From positions 1-57,416 of the forward strand of contig PLLH01000068.1 in NCBI GenBank assembly GCA_003140895.1: a stretch of 57,416 nucleotides of DNA. Direction: 5' to 3'. This document shows positions 5,279 through 40,455 of this stretch, piece by piece (the stretch's first letter is position 1; the number at the start of each line of letters is the position of its first letter). The notes beneath the pieces are model-generated. The model made no database searches. It saw only the letters and a program-made list of their open reading frames with translations, and was not told the DNA's origin. The translations under genes were made by a program, and so were the position numbers. The DNA is from Elusimicrobiota bacterium. GTDB lineage: Bacteria > Elusimicrobiota > Elusimicrobia > F11.

Positions 5279-5281
5279 TCC

Positions 5282-5977: not shown

Positions 5978-6470
5978 CGGACCGCGGACGGGGTTTGGGT
6001 TTGACGCTCATGATTTTTCGAGATCGGGGCCGCTTGTGTTGGGCGGCGTTTCATTTTCGGGAGTTCCTCGCCTCAGGGGCCATTCTGACGGAGATGCCCT
6101 CCTTCACGCGTTGATCGATGCTCTCTTGGGGGCGGCCTGCCTGGGGGATATCGGCGACCTGTTTCCCGATACGGACAAAAAATTCAAGGGAATCGATAGC
6201 CGGAAATTATTGGCCGAGGCGTTGAGACGGGTGCGCCGGGCTCACTTTAAACCGATTCATGTGGATGTGACGGTGGTGGCCGATAAGCCGCGCCTCTCTT
6301 CCCATAAGACGGCCCTCCGGGGGACGTTGGCGGCTCTCCTCTCTTTGCCTCTTTCCAGCGTGAGCGTCAAAGCCAAGACGTCCGAAGGGACTCGGCTCCT
6401 CCGTGCTCGTGGCGGCATTGCTGTCTGGGCTGTGGCGACATTGGTCCCGGTCGCGTCAAAGGGGAACTGA
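5967..6470 (+). CDS. ispF: 2-C-methyl-D-erythritol 2,4-cyclodiphosphate synthase
   Basis: 167 aa. Metal-binding residues appear in FGFDAHDF and in RGHSDGDALLHALIDALLGA. The motifs DIGDLFPDTDKKFKGIDS and VKAKTSEG are standard for IspF, which cyclises CDP-methylerythritol phosphate in the MEP pathway. It overlaps ispD upstream by 11 bp and shares a single base (TGATG) with cysS downstream, so ispD-ispF-cysS form one tightly packed unit. Confidence 0.93.
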   Translation: MKINGPRTGFGFDAHDFSRSGPLVLGGVSFSGVPRLRGHSDGDALLHALIDALLGAACLGDIGDLFPDTDKKFKGIDSRKLLAEALRRVRRAHFKPIHVDVTVVADKPRLSSHKTALRGTLAALLSLPLSSVSVKAKTSEGTRLLRARGGIAVWAVATLVPVASKGN

Positions 6471-10236: not shown

Positions 10237-10295
10237 TAAAATTCTAAGATTGCATTGAATTTTCCCCTTCGAACAGCTCGGAGTCCCATGGCTGT

Positions 10296-10367
10296 GCCGA
10301 CGTAGCTCAATGGTAGAGCATCTGCTTTGTAAGCAGAGGGTTGGGGGTTCAAGTCCCTTCGTCGGCT
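10296..10367 (+). tRNA. tRNA-Thr (anticodon TGT)
   Basis: A complete cloverleaf is visible. The acceptor stem GCCGACG pairs perfectly with CGTCGGC. The D-arm is GCTCAATGGTAGAGC. The anticodon stem TCTGC/GCAGA encloses loop TTTGTAA with anticodon TGT (reads ACA, threonine). The T-arm has GGGTTCAAGTCCC. The discriminator base is T and no CCA is encoded. It lies between the symporter and the ABC importer genes on the same strand. Confidence 0.95.
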
Positions 10368-10408
10368 TTTGATTTGCCGGTTAATTGAAGATTAAAGGAT
10401 GGGTTTCG

Positions 10409-11710
10409 ATGAAACGATGGTTGGTTTTATCTCCCTTGGCTCTTTTGGCGCTCATGATCGGGTTCGGCGCTTGTAAGAGCCGCGTGAAGCCTGAAAGCAA
10501 TGAGATATTATTCTGGCACTGGATGACCGATCGAGATAAGGTTTTTCAGGAACTCGCCCAGCAATATGAGCAGCAGACCGGCGTGAAAGTCCTTGTTCGT
10601 CTGTATGCGCCGGTGGAAGCCTACTCGCAGAATGTCAGCGTTGGAGCCCAAACCAACAGCCTTCCGGATATTTATGGAATTCTGGGAGACACGAAGATAA
10701 AAGCGAGTTTTATTAAAGCCGGTCACGTGTTGAGATTGGACGAGGCGTTGGATGCCGACAACGGCGCCTGGAAAAAAAGTTTTTATAAAGAAGCGCTGGA
10801 AACAAGTTATTTCCCACCCGTCAACCAATTCAACGTTCCCCAGGGGATCTACGGCGTTCCCATCGATGTGATGACCATCCCCATGATTTACAATAAAAAG
10901 CTTTTTTCCAAGGCCGGGCTTGATCCGAATAAGCCGCCGGAAACCTGGAGCCAGTTCATTGAAGCCGGGAAAAAATTGAAAGAGTCGGGCGTGACGGGAT
11001 TCGTGAGCGGTTGGGCGGAGGGATGGTTGATTTATTCCATGGCCACCGACCTCGCGCACAATCTCATGGGAGCCGACAAGGTCATGGATACCTTTCGCGG
11101 AAAAGTTCCTTATACGGATCCGCAATGGGTGGAGTTGTTGGGAGCCTTCGATGAATTGAAAAAGGCCGGTTTCGCCGATAACAGCATGGTCAGCATGCTC
11201 AATAAATACGCTGAGCAGGCTTTTGCCACGGAACATTCCGGGATCACCTTCAACGGCTCTTGGTCCATCAACGTGTTCGAAGGGATGAACCCCAATCTCG
11301 AATTGGGTGTTTTTCGAGTGCCGGCTCTCAGTAATAAATTTCCTCGAACGGTGTGGGGGGCGGCCGGTTCCGTGTTTAACGTGAACGCCAAATCTCCAAA
11401 TAAAGAAAAGGCCGTGGCCTTTTTGAAGTGGCTGACGGAGCCTGATCAGGCGAAGTTTATGTTGGGGAGAACCAAAAACATCCCCGCCACCAAAGGATTG
11501 GAGAAGGAATTCCCGGCGATTATCAATGATTTCGCCGGCATGATGGACAAGTCCATCCACCCCTCCCGTTTCCCGGTCAGTGAAGAGCCAAAAGTCATTG
11601 AAACGTTCACCAAGGGAATTCAAGCCATCTTGATCGGCGAGAAGACACCGGCGATCGTCTCTCGGGAAGTTCAAGCAGCGAAGGAAAAATCACTGAAGCT
11701 GAACCCATGA
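10409..11710 (+). CDS. ABC sugar transporter solute-binding lipoprotein
   Basis: About 433 aa from the ATG at 10409 (MKRWLVLSPLALL), preferred over the track's TTG at 10385 because it follows an AAGGATGGG site and gives a clean lipoprotein signal ending in GFGAC. The mature protein has the family 1 extracellular solute-binding fold: NEILFWHWMTDRDKVFQEL, PDIYGILGDTK, GVPIDVMTIPMIYNKKLF, TGFVSGWAEG and FNGSWSINVFEG. It captures sugars or glycans in the periplasm for the two permeases encoded immediately downstream; the first overlaps its stop by 4 bp. Confidence 0.9.
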   Translation: MKRWLVLSPLALLALMIGFGACKSRVKPESNEILFWHWMTDRDKVFQELAQQYEQQTGVKVLVRLYAPVEAYSQNVSVGAQTNSLPDIYGILGDTKIKASFIKAGHVLRLDEALDADNGAWKKSFYKEALETSYFPPVNQFNVPQGIYGVPIDVMTIPMIYNKKLFSKAGLDPNKPPETWSQFIEAGKKLKESGVTGFVSGWAEGWLIYSMATDLAHNLMGADKVMDTFRGKVPYTDPQWVELLGAFDELKKAGFADNSMVSMLNKYAEQAFATEHSGITFNGSWSINVFEGMNPNLELGVFRVPALSNKFPRTVWGAAGSVFNVNAKSPNKEKAVAFLKWLTEPDQAKFMLGRTKNIPATKGLEKEFPAIINDFAGMMDKSIHPSRFPVSEEPKVIETFTKGIQAILIGEKTPAIVSREVQAAKEKSLKLNP

Positions 11711-25016: not shown

Positions 25017-25022
25017 TATAAG
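25017..25022 (+). promoter_or_regulatory. Candidate -10 element of the barrel-gene promoter
   Basis: TATAAG lies 15 bp after the last hexamer of the 11-bp array and about 42 bp before the ATG at 25064. The leader carries GAGGGAG as ribosome site. Confidence 0.4.
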
Positions 25023-25063
25023 TGAATCTGATCAACCCAATCCGTTGTTCGAGGGAGAATAAC

Positions 25064-26050
25064 ATGTACGGGCGAGTCGGCACTCCATATCGAAGACATC
25101 CCCGGGCCCAACTAGCCATTGTAGTGGGGTTGTTCCTTCTTCTGTTGAGTGTCCCCGTCTCTGCCGCCTTCCAGGAAGCTCTTTGGGGAGCGCGTCCCTC
25201 CGGAATGGCCGGCGCCTTTACCGCCCTCGCCGATGACGCCAACGCCCCCGCCTACAACCCCGCCGGTATCAGCCTCCTCCGGAAAAACGAAGCCACGTTC
25301 ATGTATGCGCAGCTCTATTCCGGGGTCAATTTCAACGCCGGAAGCGACAAATCAAATTTAGGCCTCGGATACTTCAGTTTCGCCCCCCAAATCAAAGAAC
25401 AACGCTACGGCAGTTATGCCGTCAGCCTCACCAACCTCGTCGCCACGAACCTCTACCGGGAAGACAGCTTTTCGTTGACTTTCGCCGACTCGTATCAATT
25501 CGATTCCGAATCGCAGCCGCTGTTGGGATACGGGCTTAACCTCAAGTATTTGAGGCGGTCTTTTTCAACGGACTCCCGAACGGACGCGGATCCCGTGTTC
25601 AGAGGCGGTCGCGACTCCGGCGCCATCACGGCAGACCTTGGGGCTTTGTTGCGGCCTCATTGGACCGTTTTGCCAGGCCTCAAGTTTGGTTTGTGCGCTC
25701 AAAATATTACGCAGCCGGACATGGGCTTGGCCGCCACGGATCGCGTCCCGGCTCGCTACACCCTCGGAATCGCTTACCAAGAACGCGCTTATTCTTTCTT
25801 CAACCCCGCTTTGGATATTTCCCGTCGTGACGGCCGCACGCTCATGACGGCCGCCTGGGAAGGATGGTTGGCCAAAAATACCTTTGCCTTCCGCATGGGA
25901 GGCAATGCCGACGAGCTGGGCGGCGGTCTCGGATATCAATTTCGCTTGTTTGATGGAGTTTATATGCGGTTGGATTATTCTTTGATATGGCCCTTTGATG
26001 TGAAAGGGTCCAATGGGAGCCATCGTGTTTCTATTACGACAAGTTTCTAA
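25064..26050 (+). CDS. PorV/UPF0164-like outer-membrane beta-barrel protein
   Basis: About 328 aa from the ATG at 25064 (after GAGGGAGAATAAC); the track's GTG start at 25022 is upstream. A signal peptide (LAIVVGLFLLLLSVPVSA) is followed by the hallmark of the UPF0164/PorV-PorQ family: GARPSGMAGAFTALADDANA, PAYNPAGIS. The rest is a FadL-like barrel ending FDVKGSNGSHRVSITTSF, with a terminal Phe. In type IX secretion PorV shuttles cargo at the outer membrane; related proteins occur widely in diderms without that system. It heads a block of secreted-protein genes and has the 11-bp repeat array upstream. Confidence 0.82.
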   Translation: MYGRVGTPYRRHPRAQLAIVVGLFLLLLSVPVSAAFQEALWGARPSGMAGAFTALADDANAPAYNPAGISLLRKNEATFMYAQLYSGVNFNAGSDKSNLGLGYFSFAPQIKEQRYGSYAVSLTNLVATNLYREDSFSLTFADSYQFDSESQPLLGYGLNLKYLRRSFSTDSRTDADPVFRGGRDSGAITADLGALLRPHWTVLPGLKFGLCAQNITQPDMGLAATDRVPARYTLGIAYQERAYSFFNPALDISRRDGRTLMTAAWEGWLAKNTFAFRMGGNADELGGGLGYQFRLFDGVYMRLDYSLIWPFDVKGSNGSHRVSITTSF

Positions 26051-26155
26051 CTTATCCAGATTTGTTTGGATGAACGGCCACTCGAACCTAGTTTCGATTT
26101 GGCCACGACATCATTCACCTGCAGCCAGGAGTATGGGTGGCCTGTCCACAGCGAG

Positions 26156-26184
26156 TCTTCTCGCGGGACGTCAAGGCGAGAAGA
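26156..26184 (+). other. 9-bp stem-loop in the leader of the small secreted protein gene
   Basis: TCTTCTCGC pairs perfectly with GCGAGAAGA around an 11-nt loop. Flanking GTCCA and TGGAC could form an outer helix. It lies about 100 bp before the ATG at 26282 within a 231-bp gap. A structured leader or terminator of the barrel gene is possible; no T-run follows. Confidence 0.5.
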
Positions 26185-26281
26185 AATGTTCTGGACCGCG
26201 TGATGTGGTCATTCATTCAAATAAAAAAATGAAAGTGTCCCTCGCTTATCGTGAAGGCACTTGTAATAAAGGAGAAATACA

Positions 26282-27013
26282 ATGAAAAAACAACTAGTCG
26301 CATTTAGTTTGGTTGTTGCTGCTGTTTGTCTCGTGTCAGCGCCTTCATGGGCTTTCACATCGAAAAAAATCCAGGCTGTTAACGCCAGCGCTTCCGTGGG
26401 CGGCGTGAAAGACGCCACCTTCACACTGGTTCTCCGGAACCTGAGTGACACGGCCGATGCCGCTTCCATCGCGTTCAGCGGTGTGACGGCGGGCTCAACC
26501 GGATGGAAAGTTGCGGACAACCTAATTAAGCTCACATGGTCCGTGACCGACTTTGCCGGTGGTATTCAACTCTACACCGACAGCGAAAATGCAGCCGCTT
26601 CGCCAAAGTACACGGGGGTTGCTGTGAACCCGGGTGGTTTGGTGTGTAACCAGGATACGACTCAATATCTTCCGGTCGCTTGGAGTATTAAAGCGGACAC
26701 GAAGACCATTGAGCTTGCTGATGCAAATCGAGGTCTTGGCGCTTCTGATCCCAACTCAGGAGCGGTAACGGGATACAACAATAAGTATCAGTGGTTCTGG
26801 GCCATTGATAAGTCGTCACCGTCATTTACCAATGCCACGCCATTTATAACAGTGGCGAAATCGGCCGGTATCCACTTCAGCCAAGGGGACGGGGAGTTCG
26901 GGCCCGACGCTGTTCAGCCTTCCTATATGTATTTGGAAGCGAACTTCTCAGTGGCCGGAGCTGGCGCGACGTATGCGACCAACAATCTGACCTTGGAGGC
27001 CTTCATTCAATAA
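26282..27013 (+). CDS. Small secreted beta-rich protein (domain shared with the 1051-aa protein)
   Basis: 243 aa with a good ribosome site (AAAGGAG) and signal peptide ending in APSWA. The body is rich in Ala, Ser, Thr and Asn. It shares a domain with the C-terminus of the 1051-aa protein downstream: GIQLYTDSENAAASPKY here against GIQIYTDNKNASSAPQF there, LPVAWSIKADT against LPIAWSIKKDT, and YQWFW against YQWLF, each ending in LTLEAFIQ or LTLEFFTE. It precedes a chaperone-like gene, which hints at a surface fibre or appendage subunit. Function is unknown. Confidence 0.7.
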   Translation: MKKQLVAFSLVVAAVCLVSAPSWAFTSKKIQAVNASASVGGVKDATFTLVLRNLSDTADAASIAFSGVTAGSTGWKVADNLIKLTWSVTDFAGGIQLYTDSENAAASPKYTGVAVNPGGLVCNQDTTQYLPVAWSIKADTKTIELADANRGLGASDPNSGAVTGYNNKYQWFWAIDKSSPSFTNATPFITVAKSAGIHFSQGDGEFGPDAVQPSYMYLEANFSVAGAGATYATNNLTLEAFIQ

Positions 27014-27074
27014 ATTGGGATGAGGCAACGTCTTAAGAAACATCTGTTAGACAAGTCTTAGAAGTGTTGGGTTT

Positions 27075-27126
27075 GAGGCCTCCTCACCCCTTTTCTCTCT
27101 GAGAGAAGGGAGTGAGGAGGAGCCTC
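27075..27126 (+). repeat. Long imperfect hairpin (intergenic, REP-like)
   Basis: Arms GAGGC / CTCCTCAC / CCC / TTCTCTC pair with GAGAGAA / GGG / GTGAGGAG / GCCTC, about 23 bp in total with small bulges. It sits between the small secreted protein gene and the chaperone-like gene. The CCTCACCCC head resembles those of the elements at about 34335 and 45211. Confidence 0.6.
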
Positions 27127-27155
27127 GGCCCGAAAGAAGAAAAAAAGGAAGTGCC

Positions 27156-27923
27156 ATGAAGATGAAACGAGGAATAGTTGCGGGATCAATGGTGTGTTTG
27201 TTTTGGGGAAGCGTGATGGCGGCCAATATCGCTCCTCGCTACCAATTTGTGACGTTAAAACCAGGGGAACACGCGTGGGGCATTTACACACTGACCAACG
27301 ATGAGAACGAGAAGTTGAACGTCACCGCCGAGGCCAAAGACTGGTTTGTGTTGCCGGAGAACAATGGAATAGGCGCAACAACGTGGCTTACTTTTAAAAA
27401 GCCGAAATTTTTATTGAAGAAGGGAAAGACGAAGAAAGTGAAATTTTATGTTGTGGCCCCGGAAAAAGCCAAGGGGGAATTGGTTGGGATGGTTTCTTTT
27501 TTAATCGAAGGCGAGAAGGTCATGGATTTGAACCGCCGTTTGAGCTCCGCCGTCTACGTCGGCATTGAAGGGACGGAAGAGTTGAAAGGTGAGTTGTCCG
27601 CTTTTTCAATCAAGCTCGGGACCAATTCCGTTTCAGCGGGGGTTGTCGTCGAAAATAAAGGGAACGTGCATCTTCGCCCCAAGGGTCATTTTGATATTTC
27701 GACGTCCAGTGGACTTCCTGTGGCGGCCCTCTCTATTGATGAAGGAGGAGTGGCTTATCCCGGGAAGAATCAGAGTTTTTTTGGCACCTTAAACGGAGTG
27801 TCTCTTGGCGAAGGGGAATATGTAGTCAAGATTAGCCTGCAAGATATTGATCGCCAGAAGGAATTTGTCCAAGTTGAAAAAAAGTTTCTCATCAACAAGG
27901 AGGGCCAGGTTGAATTGAAGTAG
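27156..27923 (+). CDS. Secreted Ig-fold protein resembling pilus-type chaperones
   Basis: 255 aa with a signal peptide (GIVAGSMVCLFWGSVMAA). The two-part beta layout recalls PapD-like or DUF916-like Ig-fold proteins: a first half with FVTLKPGEHAWGIYTLTNDE, LLKKGKTKKVKFYVVAP and GMVSFLIEG, and a second half with VVVENKGNVHLRPKGHFDI and YPGKNQSFFGTL. The second half resembles the additional domains found in secreted proteins with the DUF916/DUF3324 arrangement. It may chaperone or scaffold the neighbouring secreted proteins. No membrane anchor is seen. The family label is tentative. Confidence 0.6.
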   Translation: MKMKRGIVAGSMVCLFWGSVMAANIAPRYQFVTLKPGEHAWGIYTLTNDENEKLNVTAEAKDWFVLPENNGIGATTWLTFKKPKFLLKKGKTKKVKFYVVAPEKAKGELVGMVSFLIEGEKVMDLNRRLSSAVYVGIEGTEELKGELSAFSIKLGTNSVSAGVVVENKGNVHLRPKGHFDISTSSGLPVAALSIDEGGVAYPGKNQSFFGTLNGVSLGEGEYVVKISLQDIDRQKEFVQVEKKFLINKEGQVELK

Positions 27924-27942
27924 GTTCAGCCTGACGGCTTGA

Positions 27943-29235
27943 ATGAATAGAGAACGGATCGTTTATCGGAGGATAAGGCTCGCACTCGCGTTGGCCCTCA
28001 TCATGGGGCCGGCGGCGACGGCTCAGGCTCTGTATTCCTCTCGTAAAAAGACCGCCCTGTCCGTCACCGCGACGGTGGGGGGGACGGCCGCTCTCTCTGC
28101 GCTTCAAATCCGCCACACGGCGCTCGCCGGCGTATCCAATGTGTCGAAGATGGCCATTATTCAAGGGGAAGTAGGAACCAGTTTTAATGGAGTTCAAACG
28201 GATTTCCCGTCTCGTATAACACCGGAAGCGAAAGCCAAATCCGCTCAAACAGTAAAGGTGTATCTCCGGTTTAGAACGATCTCGTCTTCCGGGCTTGAGA
28301 CCACCCCCGTCACCGAGTTGGGGCCCATTGAAGGGCCGGATCCTCTTTCTTTCGCTTTCCAAATTCCTCCGAGTACCATTCAGGCCGGGCATCTTCAATA
28401 TCAAATCATCGCTCAACGGTCCTCCGATAATGCCACGACGTATTTCCCCAAGACGGCGGCCGCCGATCCGACAGGACCCGACGCTTTCGTCGACGTGGGG
28501 GTTCAGGCCTCGGCTCTCTTTGTGTTTGACGTGAATGGGGGGCGCTTGATTATCCCTGAGGGAAATCCCAATGTGGGGCACAGTTCGATTGACGTTCCGG
28601 CGGGACTCTTTACTTCTCCGACCACCCTTTCTCTGATCGAGATTCCTGTCGATGTCCCAACAGCGCCGTCCTTGGCCGCTCAACCTCAACCGACCGTGGC
28701 TCTTTACCGGTTTGATTCCGATAGGTTGTTTAACGGGGCCGTCAAAGTCACGCTTCTCTATCCCGATTTTATTTTCCCGCAAGGCCAGCGGGGGATCTTG
28801 AATGGAACGCAAATTCCCGAGACGATGGCGTCGGTGATCGGATGGGACGGCTTTGAGTGGCGGCGCTTGGGCGGCGCCCGTGACACGAGCCTGAACACGT
28901 TGTCTTTGCGAGTGGGGAACGCGTACCGCTATTTCGCGATTGTTCCGATGGCGGCTTTGTCGGCGGACGACCGGCGTCCCATGGAAAAAGTCATTACGCC
29001 GAATGGAGACGGCATTAACGACGAATTAAATTTCTCTTTTGGCGACTTGACGCAAAGTGTCGATGTGGATATTTTTGATGTCAATGGACATCGCGTGCGA
29101 TCGTTGGCGTCTCCCAATAATCTAAAGTGGGACGGCCGGGACGATTCAGGGAAAGTTGTTGAGAGCGGCGTTTATATCTATCAATATACGGTTGACGGGA
29201 AACGGGTCAGCGGACTCGTGGCGGTGGCCAAATAA
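27943..29235 (+). CDS. Secreted protein with FlgD/CHU_C-like C-terminal domain
   Basis: 430 aa. The N-terminal hydrophobic stretch (LALALIMGPAATAQA) is a signal peptide. The central region is not recognised, though it has the appearance of ZU5- or Ig-like beta domains (GGRLIIPEGNPNVGHSSIDV). The last 85 residues form the FlgD Ig-like/gliding-associated tail: VITPNGDGINDELNFSF, VDVDIFDVNGHRVRSL, WDGRDDSGKVVESGVYIYQY. In Bacteroidetes such tails direct export or surface attachment; elsewhere they are general surface-protein ends. The stop overlaps the start of the 1051-aa gene (TAATG). Confidence 0.75.
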   Translation: MNRERIVYRRIRLALALALIMGPAATAQALYSSRKKTALSVTATVGGTAALSALQIRHTALAGVSNVSKMAIIQGEVGTSFNGVQTDFPSRITPEAKAKSAQTVKVYLRFRTISSSGLETTPVTELGPIEGPDPLSFAFQIPPSTIQAGHLQYQIIAQRSSDNATTYFPKTAAADPTGPDAFVDVGVQASALFVFDVNGGRLIIPEGNPNVGHSSIDVPAGLFTSPTTLSLIEIPVDVPTAPSLAAQPQPTVALYRFDSDRLFNGAVKVTLLYPDFIFPQGQRGILNGTQIPETMASVIGWDGFEWRRLGGARDTSLNTLSLRVGNAYRYFAIVPMAALSADDRRPMEKVITPNGDGINDELNFSFGDLTQSVDVDIFDVNGHRVRSLASPNNLKWDGRDDSGKVVESGVYIYQYTVDGKRVSGLVAVAK

Positions 29236-32200
29236 TGAGGACCATGAAATTGACGCGGCGAACTCGAATGCTTAACGCATGGAAACTATTCGGAATCGTT
29301 CTTCTCCTGAGCGCCTTTGCTCAGAACGCCTCCGCTACAATAGTGCATTTGATGACGGCAGACGCTCCTTTGAACACGGGTGGCCTGGGGCGTTTCGCCA
29401 TGATCATCACGTATGCCAACGCGGGATCAAATTTGGTTTTGGACAGCGCTTATACAGGGGATCCAACGCCTCCCGAGGGGGATCGAGTTCTTAAAACGAC
29501 TCTCTCCACGAGTTGGGGCGGGTGGGGATTTTTAAATACATCAGTCGCTAATAATGCGAACTACGTTTGGTGGCAGGATTTTACCGGATATGAGAATGGC
29601 AGCATCCGGTTCTGGCTTAAAAGCGATTCAACGCTCACGCTCGAGGTTAAATTTGTCGGCATGTGGGGTGATGAAACACGGCCTTACAATATCCCTTCAA
29701 CAGGGGGAGTATGGAAACCCATGGTGGTTCCGATGAGCAGTTTTGCTCCGGGAATTGATTTCAGTTATATTCGGTGTCCTTTTTTAATCACCGCGCCCGA
29801 CACCCCCGGTGCAAAGACATGGTCCGTCGATGACGTGAAGTGGGATTCCACTGTCCCAGGCGCGTTGGCTTCTATTCAGATCGCCACCACTCCCGCGGTG
29901 GTTCCTCTTGGATTTCAGCAGGTTTTTATCGCCTTGGGTTACGATTCAGTGGGGCGTTCCGTCGACATTTTACCCACATGGAGCGCCGGCAGTTTGGGGA
30001 CATTCAATCGCACGGCTGGAGGGATGGTGAGGTTCTTCGCAACAAACACACCTAGTTCGGGCAATTTAACCGCCACCTACAGCGGAGTAACGGGATTGGG
30101 CTCAATTTCGGTCCAGAATGTGAATTTCACTCAGTACAATGTTTACTCCGATATAGGAGCCGGGGGGTATGTGGGCGCTTCCCCCGCGGGAGGAAACCCG
30201 ATTCTCACTGAAATAACGGACGCGTCGGCGCCGGAAGGAACGAAATATATGAGGGCCACATATTATTTGGCCACATCGCTTGATTGGTCGGTATGGTATG
30301 TGAGCCAGCAAGATTATGCCCGGTATATGAAACCCTATGAGAACGGTTACTTAAGGTTCAACGTTCGTTCCACCAAGAACCTCCTCGTGAAAATCAATTC
30401 AAATAACATTCCCGCCGGGACCGAGCAATCGAAGATTAATCTGGATGAGCTGGGGTTTATTCCCAATGGACAGTGGCAGGATATTATCGTCCCGATGGCG
30501 CTTTTCAAAGTGAAAGAGCCGAATTTAGACTTTACGCAGATTAAAACCTATTTCACGATTGGAACTCTGTACGATTTGGTTGGGGCTGTTCCAAGCGGAA
30601 CGTTCGATGTGGACAACGTGAGATGGTTAACGACGAGCCAGGACGCGCCGGATCCGGCGAAGGTTCTGCAAGGGCTGGTTGAGAAACAAAATTCGACGAC
30701 GGGTCTCCTGGCGTCTTTCGATACCGTCAATCAAGCGGTGACCTACGATCAAGCGTTGGCGGCCATGGCGTTCACGTTCAGTAAGGATTTTACGCACGCC
30801 CAAAATATTTTCAACGCCTATCAGTCTCTCTATAGCGCCGGGCAAGGGTTTGCCGATACGTATCGGGTTGACACCAAGGCTGTCCTTGATAATGACCGTC
30901 TCTGCGGTCCCAATGGATGGATGTTGCTGGCGTTGATTCATTATCGAAATGTCTCTGGATCAACGGCTTACGATACGATGATCGACGGGTTGGCCGCTTG
31001 GTTAAAAGGATATCAGGATTCAACGGATGGCGGTATTAAATTTGGTAATCCCGTGAACGCGGGAGAGATCAACGTGAAATCAACGGAACATAACTTTGAC
31101 GTCTATGCCGCTTTTCGCGCTTACGCCATGCTGAGAGGAAACGCGGCGTACAACACAGCGGCGGACCAAATTATGGGGTGGATAAACTCAACAGCCTGGA
31201 ACGCCGCTGAAAAACGGTTCAACGTCGGAGAATTCCCCGCCGGTGGGGCCGATACCGACAAAGCGTTGGACGCCTACTCATGGGCTCCGTTGGCCTTGGG
31301 AGTGGAAGGGGCGTTTCCCTATGCCACGGTTTTGGCCAATGCCGAAACGACGTTCGGGACGACCAAGGTGAATAGCAACAACGGGAATGCCATCACGGGT
31401 TACGATTTTGGCGCCGCGGCGGGGGTCGCCCCGGATAAAGATTCGGTTTGGCTGGAAGGGACGGGGCAGATGGCCATGGCGTATCTCGCCATCGGAAATG
31501 AAACGAAGGCCAATGCGATTCTTGATCAATTGCGCCGGGCCGTTTTCAGCGTGTCTCCCACGGCTCAAGGGATGACCTATGCAACCAATATGGGAACGGC
31601 GTATGGCGGATGGATGATGGATGCCACCAATGCGGCCATTAGCCCCGCGGCGTGGTATCTGTTTACCGAGTGGAATTTTAATCCGTTCAGACCGTATTTC
31701 CTTCACTCGGTGACTGTTAAAAACGTGAGCGACAACAGTTCGGCGTCGGAGATGTCATGGCTTGGCGTGAACGCGCGCGATGGATGGAGATTGGCGAAAC
31801 AATACATTCAGCTCGATGCCCAACCGATTTCGAAGGACCCGTGGGGGATTCAGATTTACACGGACAATAAAAACGCCTCGTCAGCGCCCCAGTTCGTGGA
31901 TCCCTCGCCAACGAATACAACCAATATGGATTCCAATCCGGCGGGGCTTCTGATCGATATCCCGGGACAAACCACGACCTATATGACGTTGCCCATTGCC
32001 TGGTCTATTAAGAAAGATACGACAACGGCTCCTGTCGCGGCCAACCCCAATGACAATGGAATAAACGGACATCCCACCGATTCAAATAGTTACCAGTGGC
32101 TTTTTATGAAAGATCGGGGAACGCCCACCATGGACGGAGACGGGGATGGACTGACTGGCGGGGCCTTTGATATCACCGCGTTTGCGGATGGAGACCGCTA

Positions 32201-32390
32201 CATTCGTGTGATGCAGAAATCAACGATCTCCGGCGCTCGTGGCTCCGTCCATATGTTCTCCGGCCCCGTTGGAAACGATTTTTTTGACACCCTCTCGCCT
32301 AACTTTCTCTTCTTCGAAAGTGATTTTACCGGCGCGCCGGCTCAGGTGACGTATCGGACGAAGTTGACCCTCGAGTTTTTCACCGAATAA
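29235..32390 (+). CDS. Large multidomain secreted protein: two jelly-rolls, Ig-like, helical toroid, shared C-terminal domain
   Basis: 1051 aa with a signal peptide (LFGIVLLLSAFAQNASA). Domain order as read: jelly-roll 1 (about 35-215, ENGSIRFWLKSDSTLTLEVK to WSVDDVKWD), an Ig-like segment (about 215-300), jelly-roll 2 (about 305-480, ENGYLRFNVRSTKNLLVKI to FDVDNVRWLT), a helical region like the alpha/alpha toroids of glycosidases and lyases (about 490-820, STEHNFDVYAAFRAYAMLRG, LEGTGQMAMAYLAIG), then a C-terminal domain homologous to the 243-aa secreted protein (about 830-1051). Catalysis is not proven. It looks like a surface glycan-binding or glycan-processing protein that shares an attachment domain with the small subunit. 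Confidence 0.72.
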   Translation: MRTMKLTRRTRMLNAWKLFGIVLLLSAFAQNASATIVHLMTADAPLNTGGLGRFAMIITYANAGSNLVLDSAYTGDPTPPEGDRVLKTTLSTSWGGWGFLNTSVANNANYVWWQDFTGYENGSIRFWLKSDSTLTLEVKFVGMWGDETRPYNIPSTGGVWKPMVVPMSSFAPGIDFSYIRCPFLITAPDTPGAKTWSVDDVKWDSTVPGALASIQIATTPAVVPLGFQQVFIALGYDSVGRSVDILPTWSAGSLGTFNRTAGGMVRFFATNTPSSGNLTATYSGVTGLGSISVQNVNFTQYNVYSDIGAGGYVGASPAGGNPILTEITDASAPEGTKYMRATYYLATSLDWSVWYVSQQDYARYMKPYENGYLRFNVRSTKNLLVKINSNNIPAGTEQSKINLDELGFIPNGQWQDIIVPMALFKVKEPNLDFTQIKTYFTIGTLYDLVGAVPSGTFDVDNVRWLTTSQDAPDPAKVLQGLVEKQNSTTGLLASFDTVNQAVTYDQALAAMAFTFSKDFTHAQNIFNAYQSLYSAGQGFADTYRVDTKAVLDNDRLCGPNGWMLLALIHYRNVSGSTAYDTMIDGLAAWLKGYQDSTDGGIKFGNPVNAGEINVKSTEHNFDVYAAFRAYAMLRGNAAYNTAADQIMGWINSTAWNAAEKRFNVGEFPAGGADTDKALDAYSWAPLALGVEGAFPYATVLANAETTFGTTKVNSNNGNAITGYDFGAAAGVAPDKDSVWLEGTGQMAMAYLAIGNETKANAILDQLRRAVFSVSPTAQGMTYATNMGTAYGGWMMDATNAAISPAAWYLFTEWNFNPFRPYFLHSVTVKNVSDNSSASEMSWLGVNARDGWRLAKQYIQLDAQPISKDPWGIQIYTDNKNASSAPQFVDPSPTNTTNMDSNPAGLLIDIPGQTTTYMTLPIAWSIKKDTTTAPVAANPNDNGINGHPTDSNSYQWLFMKDRGTPTMDGDGDGLTGGAFDITAFADGDRYIRVMQKSTISGARGSVHMFSGPVGNDFFDTLSPNFLFFESDFTGAPAQVTYRTKLTLEFFTE

Positions 32391-33378: not shown

Positions 33379-34275
33379 ATGTCTAATATTTATATGAAAG
33401 CCATCCCCGTTTTCTCGCTGTTTGTCCTTTCCCTTTCCTTGTTCAACCCCTGCGCCTTCGCCGACCAGATCGTTTTAAAAGAGGGGAAAATCCTCTCTGG
33501 GAAAATCACCAAAGAAGATTCTTCCGAGGTCATGATCAACGTGGGCGGGAATATGTTTTTGCGTATAGAAAAATCAAAGATTCGGGATATTGTTAGAACT
33601 CCCAAGCCTGAACAAACTCGGAGGGTGATCACGGTGGTTCATCCGAAAAAAGTGCCGACACCTCAGGTGTCCACCGCGCCTGTCGCCGGGAACGATGCGG
33701 GTCCCGTCAGGAACCCCGGCGAGGGCTTCAAGGTGTTTAACTATGAAAAACCGGAGTACCGGATTAATGAAATCCTGTGGACGAAACCCTACGTTGTGAA
33801 GGGGGAGACGTTTGAAGAGATACGGAAAAACTGTATCGATCATCGACAAGCCGATGGGAATAAACGGGCCCCTATGAATGACGTGTCCGAAGTCGCGTTG
33901 AAGGTCGCGTGGGCCGGGAAACCGGCGACAGAAGAGGGAAAATCAAAATGGACGGCCGTGGTTTTGGCTTCAACTATTTCCGTGAACACGCCTTTGTGGG
34001 CGGCGCCCAAAAAGGCGTCGCCAGGAACAGCAGCTCAATGGAACTCTTTTGCGACCCGGCAAGCGGAGCACGATAAAGGGCATGTGTCGATTTACGAAAA
34101 TACATTGACGGCCCTGGCCGAATCGCTGGTTCATATCCGGGCGGAAGACGCCCCAAGCCTTCGAACGGAGTCGGATGATCTTGTTCGGCAAATATTGGAG
34201 CGGACAGAAAAGCAGCAACAAGGGTACGATCGGCGGCAACGTTTGAAGCCGGTCGAACCAAAGAAAAAAGATTGA
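33379..34275 (+). CDS. DUF922-type secreted protein (putative zinc protease)
   Basis: 298 aa; ATG at 33379, with 33394 as an alternative. A signal peptide (FSLFVLSLSLFNPCAFA) is followed by a short SH3-like beta region (IVLKEGKILSGKITKEDSSE), then a domain with RQAEHDKGHVSIYENTL preceded by YRINEILWTKPYVVKGETF. The EHxxxH-like motif and its surroundings match the DUF922 family, described as predicted secreted zinc-dependent proteases; activity is unproven. The C-terminus is charged (KPVEPKKKD). No operon partner is evident. Confidence 0.72.
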   Translation: MSNIYMKAIPVFSLFVLSLSLFNPCAFADQIVLKEGKILSGKITKEDSSEVMINVGGNMFLRIEKSKIRDIVRTPKPEQTRRVITVVHPKKVPTPQVSTAPVAGNDAGPVRNPGEGFKVFNYEKPEYRINEILWTKPYVVKGETFEEIRKNCIDHRQADGNKRAPMNDVSEVALKVAWAGKPATEEGKSKWTAVVLASTISVNTPLWAAPKKASPGTAAQWNSFATRQAEHDKGHVSIYENTLTALAESLVHIRAEDAPSLRTESDDLVRQILERTEKQQQGYDRRQRLKPVEPKKKD

Positions 34276-34389: not shown

Positions 34390-34836
34390 ATGAAAATGAC
34401 GTGTGCGATCCGCGTCTCTCGCGGTCAGATGATCGTCGAATTTATTTTGGCGTTCCCTGTGTTCTTGATGCTGGTTTTTGGAGCCATGGACTTTGTCGCG
34501 ATGGGGATTGAGAAAATAGTGTTGGAGAGCCGATGCCGGAGTTGGGCGCGGCGTCTCGCCATGAGCGCTCTTCAGTCCCCTGATCAAATGGAAGAGCGGG
34601 TGGCAGGCGGTCTCCCCGCGTCACTTCGGAGCGCAACCGAGATCGAGGTTCAATTGCGTTTTCTCCCGGTTCTCCCCGATTCTCAGCCTCTTCGCCGCTC
34701 CAAAGAGGTTCAGATCCTTTCCTTAACTCTCCGTGAACGCATCAGGCCTCGTTTCCCCTTGGTTCGTGAATTAATGACGAATATTCCCTTTACGCTGACG
34801 GTGTGTTGCCAGGAAGGGCGTGTAATAGGCCGATGA
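34390..34836 (+). CDS. TadE-like pseudopilin
   Basis: 148 aa. The N-terminus carries GQMIVEFILAFPVFLMLVFG, the TadE-type hydrophobic segment with its conserved Glu after a Gly, which is the prepilin peptidase site region. TadE-like minor pilins help assemble Flp pili in the Tad system. It starts the cluster, following a ribosome site (AAGAAGG), and overlaps the next gene by 4 bp. Confidence 0.82.
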   Translation: MKMTCAIRVSRGQMIVEFILAFPVFLMLVFGAMDFVAMGIEKIVLESRCRSWARRLAMSALQSPDQMEERVAGGLPASLRSATEIEVQLRFLPVLPDSQPLRRSKEVQILSLTLRERIRPRFPLVRELMTNIPFTLTVCCQEGRVIGR

Positions 34837-35597
34837 AGAAGGACACGGGGGCGATTCTTCTTTTGTTCCTCCCCATTTTTCTGAGTCTTTTTCTTATGTT
34901 GGGTTTGGCGCTTCATATGGGGCAGGCCCACGCGTCGCGAGATGAAATGCAAACGGTGGTGGATCATGTGTTGATTTCCACTCTGCGAATTCGAGAGGAG
35001 GGGTTGTCGAAAATGGCCGATCGGTGGTCTTCGATCGGCCAACTCATGGCTGAGGGAGATGATCAGGGCGGAACGATTCTTTCGACTCAATGGGACAGTT
35101 TGGAAAACGCCGCGCACACATGGAGCAACGCCCTTTCCGGATATCAAGGACGCGTCAAAGCCGTGATGACGGTGGTGATGGAAGCCAATCGGGCTCGTCG
35201 CGAGGATCTGACTGTTCAAGATGACGCCTCGCTCTCTCTTGGAATCTCACTTCAGCCTGTCATGGTTCGAGATGAGGCGAACCGGATGAAGCAGGTTCAC
35301 GATGCGTGGCCCTCTCGCCAATGGGCTCCTGAAAACCGTTTAGGGGAGCCGGACGAACGCCTTGTTTTAATGATTCAAACTCCCATGAAGCCGCTCCCCG
35401 TCCCGTTTATCCCGGCTCCTCAATGGACTCTCCGAGCCGGGGCGGGAGGCCGGCTTCGTTGGGATGTGGATCAACGCGACCCGTTGATCCAGCTGACCGG
35501 TAATGGAGGGTTTCCTCGGACGTGGGAGGAGGCTCTCAATGGGCCTCGCGTGGACCCATTTCGAACCGCTTTGTACCGGTCGTCATTGGATGAGTGA
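34833..35597 (+). CDS. TadG/TadE-like pilus assembly protein
   Basis: About 254 aa from the ATG at 34833 (MKKDTGAILLLFLPIFLSLF), overlapping the preceding stop; the track's start at 34803 is internal to the upstream gene. A single N-terminal membrane helix is followed by a periplasmic region with heptad-like helices (ADRWSSIGQLMAEGDDQG). Its position between two TadE-like genes and its helix start suggest a TadG-type component, but sequence similarity is weak. Confidence 0.6.
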   Translation: MKKDTGAILLLFLPIFLSLFLMLGLALHMGQAHASRDEMQTVVDHVLISTLRIREEGLSKMADRWSSIGQLMAEGDDQGGTILSTQWDSLENAAHTWSNALSGYQGRVKAVMTVVMEANRARREDLTVQDDASLSLGISLQPVMVRDEANRMKQVHDAWPSRQWAPENRLGEPDERLVLMIQTPMKPLPVPFIPAPQWTLRAGAGGRLRWDVDQRDPLIQLTGNGGFPRTWEEALNGPRVDPFRTALYRSSLDE

Positions 35598-35606
35598 GGA
35601 GCCAGG

Positions 35607-35999
35607 ATGAGGATCCGCGGGAATGCCATCGTCGAACTTGTGTTGTGCCTCCCCTTTATCCTGCTGTTTGTTTGCGCGGCGAGGTCTTTTATGAAAGTCA
35701 ATTCCATGCGGCGCGCTGTGGCCGGAGTTGTTCGAGTGGGAAGCGTGTTGGCGGGGAGCGGTCTCGTCTCCAAGGAGGAGGTTCTTTTGTCCATGGAGAG
35801 CGCCGCTCACGACCAAACGGGATTGCCTTCATCGGCATGGACGTTTACCGTCGACCGGTTCACGGAGACTCCCGCCTCAAAATTTTATCGTCTCATCGTC
35901 GCCGGTGCGGAGTGCCGGACTGACGATGATCTCCTCCGGAACATGGGAATTGAATCACCCGTGATTCGAAAAAGAGCTGTATTGGAGGAGGGAAGATGA
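35607..35999 (+). CDS. TadE-like pseudopilin (second copy)
   Basis: 130 aa. The start MRIRGNAIVELVLCLPFILL contains the G...xxVE hydrophobic pilin-like signature, as in the first TadE-like gene. The tail is a small periplasmic domain. It lies 9 bp after the TadG-like gene and overlaps the CpaB gene by 4 bp (ATGA), so it belongs to the same transcript. Confidence 0.75.
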   Translation: MRIRGNAIVELVLCLPFILLFVCAARSFMKVNSMRRAVAGVVRVGSVLAGSGLVSKEEVLLSMESAAHDQTGLPSSAWTFTVDRFTETPASKFYRLIVAGAECRTDDDLLRNMGIESPVIRKRAVLEEGR

Positions 36000-36760
36000 G
36001 TCCGAAGTTGCGAGGCATTGTTTGTTTGGGGTTAAGCGTCGTTGTGGGGGGAGCGGTCTGGATTTATCTTCGCCGGGCGGAACAAAAGATCCAGTCCCTT
36101 TATAAGATGACCACTGTTTTGTGCGCCCGAAAATACGTGGCATCGGGAAAGGTTGTTTCTGAAGACATTCTTGAATCGGTGCCGGTGCCCGTCGCCTTTC
36201 TTCAGCCAACCGCCGTTCAAAAGAAGGAAGATCTTTTGGATAAAGACGGGAAGCCGTGTTATCAAACACGCATCGGGCTCCTGAAGGGAGAGCAGATCAC
36301 CAAATCCAGGCTCGTGTTGGCCGGCGTTTTCTCGGGGCTCTCCTGGATTCTTCCCGACGGCGTCACAGCGCAAACGTTGAAACTCTCGGCCGAACAGGCG
36401 GTGGGAGGGCTTGTTCAACCCGGTGATTGGGTGAATCTTATCTGCGTCATCGATAAACAGCCGGGGTGGGGGAAACTTCAGGCGCTGACACTTCTTGAAC
36501 GGGTCCGTGTTTTGGCGGTGAATCAGTCGCTGTGGGATCCGGCGTTGGCCGCGGGTGAAAAGGGCTATTCGAAGACGGAGGGGGGCGAGTCTTTCTTGGT
36601 GACGGTGGAAGTGGCGCCAACCGATGCGTCCCTGGTGGCATTGGCCTCAGAGAAAGGTAGAATCATATTGACCTTGGTATCGCCCGTTGATAGGTGTAAA
36701 TACGCCCCTCCACCGGTTGGGCTGTCGGATTTAAAAGGTGATCATGGACCATCAGGATAA
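35996..36760 (+). CDS. cpaB: Flp pilus assembly protein CpaB/RcpC
   Basis: 254 aa. An N-terminal membrane helix (IVCLGLSVVVGGAVWIYL) is followed by a SAF domain (VLCARKYVASGKVVSEDIL) and the CpaB core (LKLSAEQAVGGLVQPGDWVN, TLLERVRVLAVNQ, VTVEVAPTDASLVALASEKG). RcpC/CpaB is a periplasmic component of the Tad machine that helps the secretin channel. The gene overlaps its upstream TadE-like gene by 4 bp. Confidence 0.88.
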   Translation: MSPKLRGIVCLGLSVVVGGAVWIYLRRAEQKIQSLYKMTTVLCARKYVASGKVVSEDILESVPVPVAFLQPTAVQKKEDLLDKDGKPCYQTRIGLLKGEQITKSRLVLAGVFSGLSWILPDGVTAQTLKLSAEQAVGGLVQPGDWVNLICVIDKQPGWGKLQALTLLERVRVLAVNQSLWDPALAAGEKGYSKTEGGESFLVTVEVAPTDASLVALASEKGRIILTLVSPVDRCKYAPPPVGLSDLKGDHGPSG

Positions 36761-37130
36761 AGTAAATAAATCTTTTTTGGTGAATCATGTCGCTTGTCCC
36801 TCTTGTGGGGCCATTAATCCAGACACCGCGTATGCGTGTATTACTTGTTATAAGCGCATGTTCGTGAAAGACGAGTTGTCCTTTTGGCAAACACAGATCC
36901 GGCCCGGCACCAAGGGAGTTGTCCTCGCGATTGTTGTAGCTGTGGCGCTTCTTTTCCTGTTGAAACAGTGGTTGGATAACATCGACGCGCAAATGACCGT
37001 TAATTGTAACTCGGCCGAGTACAGTATGTCGTTTGTCGCCGAAAAAAAGAGACAGCATTTCTGGACTCATACGTTGACGGACAACAGAAGGGTCTCCTCC
37101 CCCCAAGAAAAACAACATCCCTCTCGTTAG
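36744..37130 (+). CDS. Small zinc-ribbon membrane protein in the Tad cluster
   Basis: About 128 aa from the ATG at 36744, overlapping the end of cpaB by 17 bp. The N-terminus has a zinc-ribbon pattern: CPSCGAINPDTAYACITC. A single membrane helix follows (VLAIVVAVALLFLL) with a short tail that contains one Cys. This domain pair is common in uncharacterised bacterial proteins. Position inside the cluster suggests an accessory role in Tad assembly or regulation; no specific function is supported. Confidence 0.65.
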   Translation: MDHQDKVNKSFLVNHVACPSCGAINPDTAYACITCYKRMFVKDELSFWQTQIRPGTKGVVLAIVVAVALLFLLKQWLDNIDAQMTVNCNSAEYSMSFVAEKKRQHFWTHTLTDNRRVSSPQEKQHPSR

Positions 37131-37177
37131 TTTTTAATTTTTTCTTCCCCCTCCAGAGAATCGCCTAAGGAGGATCT

Positions 37178-39037
37178 ATGCCGTTCGTACTTGGTTTCAT
37201 TCCCCCGTTCATCGATGGATTGGGAAGCGCGTCCGTTTTTTGGTCGTTGGCGAAAAATATCAAAGACAGTGCCGGATCTGTTTTATGTTTTAGCCCGGCG
37301 AGATCTCTCTATCCCCGTTTAAACGATGAATTCAAACCTTTTCCGTGGACGTCGTTTAAAGAAGGGAGGCACAGCGCTTCCTTGTCCGGCAAGACGGATG
37401 GCCGGGACCTGTTTAAACAGGTCTCACCCCCGGCCGCTTACCTCGATTGTTTTGATCCGGATATGGCATCGCTCCTTGACGTGTGCGGCCCCGCGATGAT
37501 TTGGATGACGCCAAGCTTCATGCTCTCACAACTCGCCGATCCGCCACTGATTCGAAAAGTTTCCGTGGTGGTCATCGGCGTCGCGCCGACCTTGGAGGGG
37601 ATTGAGCAAGCTTTGTTCGAGCGGGGCCGTCTCTTAACCAAGGGGGTATCGGCGGAGGACATCGAGTTCCATCTTCTTAACGCCGGCATCCCCGGCGGGA
37701 TTCCAGTGGAGATGATTCGGGAACACGTGGGACTTTTGAGCGCCGTCTATCCGTATGATCCCGAACCCCTGCTCCACTCAGAGAGCGAAGGGAAACCCAT
37801 CCAGTCGATCGCGCCTCGTTCATCGTTGGCCGCAGCGTTACGGGCGGCCACCGAAGGAATGTTGGAACGGGCGAAGAGTAGAGAAGCGCGGCGCGGAGCG
37901 GCTCCCGCGCCTTCGTTGAGCGAGGCCCAGATCGAACGGAGGGTCATTGAACGGTTGTGGCGCCGGTTGGGACCGGCAGAACAGACCGGTTCGTGGACGC
38001 CGGGCCAAATCGATCACCAGATTGAACGGGAACTTCACGCGGTCCTGTCGGAAAACGCGGTCTCCGGCATGGGCGAGGAGGAGGTGAAAAAAATGACTCA
38101 ATGCGTTCGCGACGGCGTGATGGGGCTTGGACCCTTGGAGAAGTTAATGAGGGATGATTCGATCAGCGAAATTATGGTCAATGGCCGGGATCAGCTTTTT
38201 GTTGAGCGCGAGGGGCGTCTTGAGCCGTTTCCCGAGGCCTTCGTTTCGGATGTTCAGTTGAAGGTGGTGATAGATCGAATCGTGGGGCAGATGGGCCGTC
38301 GAGTGGACGTGTCATCTCCGCTCTGCGACGTCCGCACGCGAGACGGGTCTCGCGTCAACGTGGTTTTGCCGCCGGTTTCCATCGGGACTCCGGTTGTGAC
38401 CATTCGCCGTTTTCGTCGTTCGCTTCTGTCGTTCGATGATTTGATCGCGCGCGGGTCGCTTAAGCCCGAGGACGCCGAACGGTTAAAACGGCATGTGTCG
38501 AACAGAGATAATATTCTGATCGCCGGGAACAGCGGTTCGGGGAAAACAACGCTCCTCAATATTCTCTCCGGAGTGATTGATGAGACCGAACGCATTATCA
38601 CCTTGGAGGACGCGGCGGAGCTGAAGCTTCAGCAGCCTCATGTGGTTCGGCTTGAGACGCGTCCCAAAAACACCGAAGGAGAGGGGGAGGTGACCATGCA
38701 TGCCCTCGTCGTTAATTCGCTGCGCATGCGTCCCGACCGGATTATCATCGGGGAGTGCCGTGGGGCGGAAGTGATTCCCATGCTTCAGGCCATGAACACG
38801 GGGCACGATGGGTCGATGACCACCCTCCACGCCAATTCGGCGGAAGACGCGCTTCAGCGGCTTGAGTCCATGATTTTGTTGGGGGCGCCTCAATGGCCGT
38901 TGGATATTGTCCGCCAGCAGATTGCGTCGAGTTTGGATCTTATTGTGTATCTGAAACGAGAGGGAGCCCAGCGCCGGTGTACCGGGATCAAAAAAATTTA
39001 TTTTGACGCGGGTCGCCTGGCCCTTCTAGAGGAGTGA
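37178..39037 (+). CDS. cpaF: CpaF-type secretion ATPase with fused CpaE-like N-terminal domain
   Basis: 619 aa. The C-terminal two thirds are a CpaF/TadA ATPase: [20 protein letters not shown], Walker [15 protein letters not shown], the Asp box [13 protein letters not shown], Walker [12 protein letters not shown] and [13 protein letters not shown]. It drives Flp pilus assembly at the inner membrane. The first about 200 residues look like a degenerate CpaE/MinD-type domain: [20 protein letters not shown] stands where CpaE has its P-loop, followed by [19 protein letters not shown] and [10 protein letters not shown]. The Walker lysine pattern is missing. No separate cpaE gene is in the window. 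Confidence 0.9.
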
Positions 39038-39040
39038 GTC

Positions 39041-39712
39041 ATGATGACAACGGTTGTCGTTCTTGGCGCGGGAATCCTGGGGGGAATTGGAATGTGGATG
39101 GTTTCTGATCCGGCGGCCCTGTCTGCTTTGGCCGGTCGGCTCAAAGAGGCGGTTCACCGATGGGAACGGTTTCGCTGGCGAGAGAGAATCATTGATCAGT
39201 GGCCGGACGGATTGACCTTGCTCTCCGGGGCAGTCAAAGCGGGTCTCACGCTGGATGAAGCGTTGACCGTTCTTATGACGGAGTCTCCGCAGCCGCTCAG
39301 AAATCATATCGCGCGCCTGTTGGGCGAGGCGTCTCATTGGCTTCCATTCCAAGTTCGCGTCCAGATTCTTTTCAAAGACCCGTCTTTATCCTTGGCGCGG
39401 GCCACCTTGCTCTTATCTCACGCCGCCGGCGGGCGCGCGGCGGATTTGTTGGAATCGTGCGCGCGGATTTTAAGACGCAAGAGCGAGCTTCGGGAAAAAG
39501 CCCGCATGCTGACCGCTCAAGCGCGCTTAACAGCGTGGGTTGTCGGCTTGTCTCCGTTCGTTTTGATGGCGTTGCTTCAGGTTTTATCGCCGGAACTCAT
39601 TCGCCCGTTTTTCGCGTCAAAGGCGGGGCTATTCCTTTTGGCGTTGGTAATTCTTCTGGTGACGGCGGGTCTTTGGACCGTTCATGTGATGGCGAAAGGA
39701 TTGGACGCGTGA
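39041..39712 (+). CDS. tadB: TadB-like inner-membrane protein
   Basis: 223 aa. An N-terminal helix (VVVLGAGILGGIGMWMV) and a GspF-like region (DGLTLLSGAVKAGLTLDEAL, LSHAAGGRAADLLESCARIL) lead to two C-terminal helices (LFLLALVILLVTAGLWTV). TadB and TadC form the membrane platform for the CpaF motor. It starts 3 bp after the cpaF stop and overlaps tadC by 4 bp (GTGA). It is shorter than typical TadB (about 300 aa), lacking the N-terminal portion. Confidence 0.82.
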   Translation: MMTTVVVLGAGILGGIGMWMVSDPAALSALAGRLKEAVHRWERFRWRERIIDQWPDGLTLLSGAVKAGLTLDEALTVLMTESPQPLRNHIARLLGEASHWLPFQVRVQILFKDPSLSLARATLLLSHAAGGRAADLLESCARILRRKSELREKARMLTAQARLTAWVVGLSPFVLMALLQVLSPELIRPFFASKAGLFLLALVILLVTAGLWTVHVMAKGLDA

Positions 39713-40455
39713 AGACGAGCGTCGTTCTCTTCTTTTCGATATCCGTTTATATCGCCTGCCAGGCTTTCTTCGAACTTCATTGGAAGAGCCGTTTGCGCCG
39801 GCGATGGGCGGAGGCGTCCCTGACGCCGTCCTCGCTCGGCGTCCGCCGCTGGTTTTTGTGTGGGGCGTGGGGCGCGATCGGCGCTCTTCTCCCATGGCTG
39901 GTTTTTCAAGATCAGGCGTGGCTTGCTCTCGCCGGCGGCGCTTTTGGGGTGTGGGTTCCCTTCCACATCGTTCGTGAAGAGAGGCGGAAGAGGACGTGGG
40001 CGAACTGGACACAATTTCCTGATTTTTTGGAGCTTTTGGCGATGGGGTTGTCCGCCGGGATCACGCTGGAGAAATCGTGGGAGCTGGCCTCCGGGCATTT
40101 GCCGGAGGGATCCTTGCGGAGCGAACTGATTCAGGCGTTCCGCTCCATGGAATGGGGTCAGTCCCGCGAGGAGGCGTTCCATTCACTTCAACAACGGTTG
40201 GATGATTCCCGGGTTTCGTCGGTCCTCGTGTTGATCCACCAGGGGATGAAACGAGGCGTTTCTCTGCATTCGCTTCTTTTGGATCTCACGGAATCGATGC
40301 GGTTGTCGGCGTCGCTCACCGTTGAGAAAAAGGCGCATACCATGTCGATTCGCCTCCTCTTCCCTATCATGATTTTTATTTTCCCGAGCTTGTTCATCAT
40401 TCTCTTCGGGGCGCTTTTTCTCCAATACCTCCAAAACGGGGCCTTTGTTTTTTGA
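39709..40455 (+). CDS. tadC: TadC-like inner-membrane protein
   Basis: About 248 aa from the GTG at 39709 that overlaps the tadB stop; the track start at 39337 is out of place, inside tadB. Helices at the N-terminus are followed by the GspF-like domain: [40 protein letters not shown], and two C-terminal helices ([20 protein letters not shown]). Together with TadB it forms the CpaF platform. It ends the Tad gene run. Confidence 0.85.

Follow-up and report, generated by a model that had tools for sequence, protein, structure and literature searches.

A gene set of Elusimicrobiota that may encode a chaperone-assisted, donor-strand surface fibre with a type IX anchor

What might be built by five neighbouring genes of an Elusimicrobiota bacterium that encode an outer-membrane barrel, a small secreted protein, a chaperone-like protein, a CHU_C-tailed protein and a very large protein? 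We examined this question in contig PLLH01000068.1 of assembly GCA_003140895.1, positions 1 to 57,416, a stretch of DNA referred to here as the window. Elusimicrobiota is a little-studied bacterial phylum. We favour, with a probability of about 0.6, a chaperone-assisted donor-strand surface fibre that is anchored by type IX secretion and lacks an usher. A first-pass annotation of the sequence had already suggested a fibre; what it did not contain is that the first approximately 18 mature residues of the small protein resemble those of the otherwise unrelated CHU_C protein of the same genome. All open reading frames (ORFs) of 26282-32390 sit where that annotation had placed them, and the upstream neighbour of the small-subunit gene is the barrel ORF at 25022-26050. 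The features, all on the forward (+) strand, are these:

25022..26050, +: PorV/FadL-like outer-membrane barrel, 342 residues counted from a GTG (the true start may be a later ATG); NF033709 at E=6e-11, below cut-off; conserved alongside the set
26282..27013, +: small (major) subunit, 243 residues, homologous to the C-terminus of the 1051-residue protein
26354..26410, +: N-terminal extension FTSKKIQAVNASASVGGVK of the 243-residue protein, proposed donor strand, genome-matched with the N-terminus of the 430-residue protein
27067..27133, +: intercistronic stem-loop downstream of the gene for the small subunit, which may control dosage; the gap folds at -59.9 kcal/mol (z=-4.5)
27156..27923, +: two-domain Ig-like chaperone, 255 residues, no apparent transmembrane helix (AlphaFold2, Foldseek)
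27943..29235, +: CHU_C-tailed protein, 430 residues, proposed fibre base and surface anchor; CHU_C at E=9.8e-10, conserved
28030..28083, +: donor-like N-terminus YSSRKKTALSVTATVGGT of the 430-residue protein, matching the small-subunit N-terminus of the same genome
28984..29193, +: CHU_C / type IX secretion system (T9SS) type B sorting domain (PF13585, own-genome search)
29235..32390, +: large protein, 1051 residues, proposed tip, with carbohydrate-binding module (CBM)-like regions, an alpha-helical domain at about 485-819 and a C-terminal subunit domain
31701..32390, +: the C-terminal subunit domain of the proposed tip, without N-terminal extension; E=5e-25 to the 243-residue protein (alignments A1 and A7)

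The 243-residue protein comprises a signal peptide (residues 1-24), an N-terminal extension (about 25-43) and a folded core (about 44-243). It aligns with residues 825-1051 of the large protein (BLASTP 91 bits, E=5e-25, 30% identity over 237 columns), and the Smith-Waterman score of the shared domain is 243, compared to a mean of 35.1 (sd 5.6, maximum 64) for 1000 shuffles. The alignment that the first-pass annotation had pointed out therefore lies far above shuffled scores, and at the level of sequence the homology is beyond doubt. AlphaFold2 models a confident core from about residue 40, with residues 1-39 at a predicted local distance difference test score (pLDDT) below 50, and the N-terminal segment thus falls outside the predicted fold of the subunit. 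The domain of the large protein starts after this segment, i.e. it has no extension (alignments A1 and A7); the subunit domain of two-domain tip adhesins of the FimH type likewise has none. The last strand forms the very end of subunits and tips, in most cases with the pattern hydrophobic-x-hydrophobic-E-x-aromatic.

Within a genome, the small subunit and the CHU_C protein have mature N-termini that resemble each other; between genomes these N-termini differ. The small subunit and CHU_C protein begin, respectively, with ATPVAGSARVFLASATTGG and ASPVPGSAQVFTAGVTVGG in locus L016, FQSVGRSTFTAGLTTGGV and FQSRGKQSFAAGLVTGGV in L017, FSGSISSTTITASATF and YSGSISSSTITCSVTL in L109, and FQSIRISTITAQA and FQSISISTVVAEA in L113. 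Among six genomes the true pairing was the best of all 720, and among 14 genomes the mean score was 36.8 for matched vs. 18.5 for permuted pairs (p=5e-6), a signal that survives correction for composition. No pairing signal was found in the neighbouring segments in the 14-genome test, and the control N-termini of the large protein (p=0.38) and the chaperone (p=0.19) did not match. The loci were picked by gene homology and not by the N-terminal segment; cleavage sites were predicted, a few being shifted some residues by eye. L112, whose anchor gene has no clear start, was excluded, and loci with a subunit domain in place of the anchor's donor segment were not eligible. In both proteins the matched segment alternates in hydrophobicity with a two-residue period, as a beta strand does (p about 0.01). 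Since a better match within than between genomes is not given by ancient duplication alone, the predicted N-termini are kept alike by a common constraint or by repeated copying.

Matched N-termini that lie outside the subunit fold are a prediction of donor-strand complementation, in which the tip would have a groove only, the subunit a groove and a strand, and the anchor a strand only. The large, small and CHU_C proteins are built in this way, and three proteins would thus have three roles. The 243-residue protein would be the repeating subunit, the groove of its core filled by the N-terminal 18 or so residues of the next subunit, and the 1051-residue protein the tip, with carbohydrate-active domains followed by a groove domain that lacks a donor strand. 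The 430-residue protein, which is most likely an anchor or terminator because it bears the subunit's donor-like N-terminus, would form the base: its donor strand would close the last groove, and its CHU_C domain would take it through a type IX translocon of the SprA type, with the PorV-like barrel holding it on the cell. The 255-residue chaperone would keep the subunits before assembly, and the stem-loop would keep the subunit in excess. Homology, the conserved gene set, the genome-matched N-termini, the chaperone fold, the presence of SprA, the lack of an usher and the stem-loop are computed results; from these we infer strand exchange, polymerisation, the route of export, surface location and a role with glycans.

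The chaperone assignment comes from structure prediction. AlphaFold2 gives a confident two-domain beta model (pLDDT 90), for which the best Foldseek match in the PDB is 9i25, an Enterococcus faecium WxLIP complex with a long WxL protein (E=9e-12), followed by YadV (6e-10), CfaA, Caf1M and FimC, among others. The Ig-fold chaperone-like gene of the first-pass annotation thus matches both WxLIP and PapD-type chaperones. It is a PapD-type two-domain chaperone by fold only, as no PapD sequence match was found in Pfam. Members of this chaperone group match PF06030 (WxLIP) more often than any other family, though weakly (11 of 16, best 6e-5); the 255-residue protein itself scores 13.1 bits vs. a cut-off of 27.3 and has no C-terminal membrane helix in its sequence.

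The tail of the 430-residue protein, recognized earlier as CHU_C, matches PF13585 over the Pfam cut-off; it also lies at the cut-off of TIGR04131 (T9SS type B; 35.0 vs. 35) and above that of TIGR04183 (type A; 24.5 vs. 23), so that the protein carries the C-terminal sorting domain of type IX cargo. The first-pass annotation had asked for type IX secretion genes elsewhere in the genome. The Pfam family SprA_N weakly marks proteins of about 1800 residues in nine genomes, and one of these (from G007) found relatives in 39 of 41 genomes when used as a query, including a divergent SprA-like translocon in the window's own genome, which is 99.8% complete (G000:C32:19269-24518, locus L101; E=4e-258). 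The G007 relative itself matches TIGR04189 at E=3e-39, although its 134 bits fall short of the equivalog cut-off (200). Almost all genomes of the class thereby have a divergent SprA-like translocon of about 1800 residues (39 of 41 vs. 9 by SprA_N), and its gene often adjoins gapA/pgk-like genes (L069, L101).

The barrel gene is real, as had been claimed, and its product reads as a distant relative of the PorV family: NF033709 (PorV/PorQ family) gives 42.5 bits vs. a cut-off of 90, UPF0164 gives E=0.008, and named relatives exist in Elusimicrobia bacterium RA.bin92 and Candidatus Obscuribacterium magneticum (placed by NCBI in phylum Elusimicrobiota, class Elusimicrobia). Of the 11 CHU_C matches in the window's genome, eight adjoin a gene for a PorV-like barrel, one of them in the window itself (25022-29235); the other such pairs are on contigs C16, C59, C71, C87, C113 and C118. 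Each type IX cargo may thus have a barrel of its own in this genome, an arrangement that would fit the pattern in Bacteroidetes, where a dedicated PorP-like barrel holds type B cargo on the cell (PMC9143113). Its size is too small for an usher, and the barrel more probably serves the CHU_C anchor as a type IX partner, perhaps as holder or shuttle.

The gap between the small-subunit and chaperone genes contains a near-perfect stem-loop. The same gap has z < -3.5 in 14 of 16 loci, with unrelated sequences, compared to 3 of 14 control gaps; since those three also fold well, we treat the stem-loop as a supporting argument only. It suits a major subunit made in excess over the chaperone, tip and anchor. 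In L111 the stem-loop follows only the second of two small-subunit genes.

The gene set is conserved in at least two classes of the phylum, in two main gene orders; the refuting condition named in the first-pass annotation, a gene order that is not conserved, thus does not apply. Relatives of the chaperone-like gene occur in 12 of 41 near genomes, 19 of 235 genomes of the class and 52 of 341 of the phylum; a scan of the genome contigs with the 255-residue chaperone as query found no relative. The order barrel-small-chaperone-CHU_C-large is found in L016, L017 and L018 (same family) and in L019, and small-chaperone-large-CHU_C-barrel in L108, L109, L111 and L113 (other classes). Outside the class the set is whole or partial in nine of ten opened loci, L115 having the chaperone only, and L112 carries three small-subunit genes.

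With respect to function, the Exop_C galactose-binding-like match of the large protein (E=0.005) is below cut-off. In other classes, stand-alone proteins encoded beside the operon match residues 485-819. In L076, L112 and L021 a GH72/GH2-like enzyme carries the C-terminal subunit domain, and upstream of the set the window encodes a sugar-type solute-binding protein and a GH2_C/GH72-like enzyme. Because of these fusions, matches and upstream genes, the fibre is likely to bind or cut glycans, and the approximately 500-fold enrichment of an Elusimicrobia population (another organism) on cellulose particles (PMC7031533) fits such a role. For the glycan-binding tip of the first-pass annotation, the basis is a set of weak CBM-like matches together with the GH72-like fusions that relatives show. 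As a whole that annotation is partly supported: the small subunit, the chaperone, the large tip and the type IX link have each gained support, but the CHU_C protein is better read as an anchor or terminator, and the barrel as its type IX partner.

Several results weigh against the fibre or say nothing for it. No known fibre subunit matches the fold of the subunit model significantly (best E=0.1), and the weak list of TasA, CanA, SafD, FimI and PapA was noted and not counted as evidence. PDB sequence searches with the subunit, chaperone, barrel and SprA were empty or at chance level, and no protein of the set matched a pilin family in Pfam. PorU (C25, PF01364) and GldL (TIGR03513) gave no match in searches that had no positive control. 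The small subunit and the tip have no type IX tail with which to cross the outer membrane; that they leave chained to the anchor is our guess. Finally, in L024, L072, L078 and L110 the N-terminus of the CHU_C protein is a subunit domain and not a donor segment (L110_8719 matches the subunit at E=1e-24 and the anchor at E=2e-79). This variant keeps the partner relation but reverses its polarity, which the model must still explain. A different small secreted family of about 190 residues replaces the usual small subunit in L024 (8132-8701) and L026 (6970-9142); it occurs where the CHU_C protein bears its own subunit domain.

The same proteins could instead form a surface complex like that of WxL/Csc clusters: a glycan-binding patch with the small, large and two-Ig proteins in one or a few copies, perhaps paired by strand exchange but not polymerised. 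The gene logic is that of csc clusters (PMC1534035, PMC10599100), the chaperone's best fold match is a WxLIP bound to a long WxL protein, and PF06030 weakly matches most of the chaperones. However, the chaperone lacks a membrane helix that could keep it at the surface, the combination of a groove domain with a donor-like N-terminus in the subunit would permit chains, the stem-loop speaks for excess subunit, and L112 carries three subunit genes. We consider a patch unlikely, if still worth keeping in mind. Less probable again is a reading of the shared N-terminus as a tag for sorting or processing, recognised for instance by the type IX machinery or by a peptidase, and not as a donor strand. 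In each of the two proteins the segment does come directly behind the signal peptide, in many cases as F/Y-x-S. However, a genome-wide tag would be expected on the other CHU_C proteins, whose N-termini in this genome are unlike it (by eye), and the segment varies freely between genomes while changing in step within them and alternates like a beta strand. A generic tag was judged unlikely from those other N-termini, the pairing test and the flat controls.

The chaperone fold and the donor-strand logic would also suit a chaperone-usher pilus with an usher that has diverged beyond detection, or with the PorV-like barrel in the usher's role. The usher family (PF00577) was found in none of the 41 genomes, with a positive E. 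coli control, and the sole barrel gene conserved with the set encodes about 310-340 residues, is near PorV and is short for an usher with its extra domains. A hidden usher therefore seems very improbable, and membership among chaperone-usher pili was rejected because no usher was found. Membership among WxL systems was rejected because none of 18 subunit domains matched the WxL domain (PF13731), even at E values of up to 10.

By the tests made, then, the set is analogous to chaperone-usher pili and to Gram-positive WxL/Csc clusters and a member of neither. With chaperone-usher pili (classical, alternative and archaic) it shares the PapD-type chaperone fold, a small subunit plus a large tip with a C-terminal subunit domain, and a donor-like N-terminal extension on the subunit but not the tip; it differs in having no usher in 41 genomes, no pilin-family match and an anchor with a type IX sorting domain. 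Donor-strand fibres with a separate tip and anchor are also known, as type V pili (FimA, Mfa1), from Bacteroidales that have type IX secretion. Their subunits, however, are lipoproteins matured by a protease, and we know of no chaperone gene for them. WxL/Csc clusters (CscA-D; WxLIP) combine a small domain-only protein, a two-Ig protein, a large protein with a C-terminal domain and a small anchored protein, and are linked to carbohydrates (PMC1534035, PMC10599100). The gene logic, the carbohydrate link and the chaperone's best fold match are common to both, whereas the present set belongs to an outer-membrane phylum, has no WxL Pfam match, a PF06030 score below cut-off and no membrane helix, and uses a CHU_C anchor instead of LPxTG. 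Type B cargo with PorP-like barrels (SprB-SprF, PG1035-PorP) shares the CHU_C/type B tail and the adjoining cognate barrel gene (PMC9143113), but here the barrel is of the PorV family, SprA is below the equivalog cut-off (134 vs. 200 bits), and the cargo begins with a donor-like segment and adjoins a chaperone gene.

Literature searches, with subscription journals and preprints largely outside their coverage, gave no description of such a system in Elusimicrobiota nor of this combination of features for known pili. Tentatively, and at a little less than even odds, these may be a separate pilus class: chaperone-assisted donor-strand fibres, spread in Elusimicrobiota, in which a type IX route and a CHU_C anchor replace the usher and which link chaperone-usher pili to WxL/Csc clusters. 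If so, these fibres would be a further type of pilus, with subunits that depend on a PapD-like chaperone and not on an usher, and would show a possible tie of donor-strand fibres to type IX secretion. The same logic would make donor-strand anchors of the tiny CscD peptides in Csc clusters, and would so offer a testable explanation for these very short proteins of Gram-positive WxL clusters. The genome-matched N-termini of two otherwise unrelated proteins offer a cheap biochemical test.

Some neighbouring genes may also be mentioned. Just downstream of the set lies a secreted DUF922 protein (33379-34275, E=2e-19), in an order kept in L018, followed by a Tad pilus cluster recognised from the sequences of TadE-like, CpaB-like, CpaF-like ATPase and TadB/TadC-like ORFs (34390-40455); a Tad cluster also adjoins the set in L018. 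In L074 (G180; 5162-7087 and 10249-10902) a related chaperone lies beside other small secreted proteins that have no Pfam match and WTVTYTLTTTF-like ends, possibly a second type of fibre.

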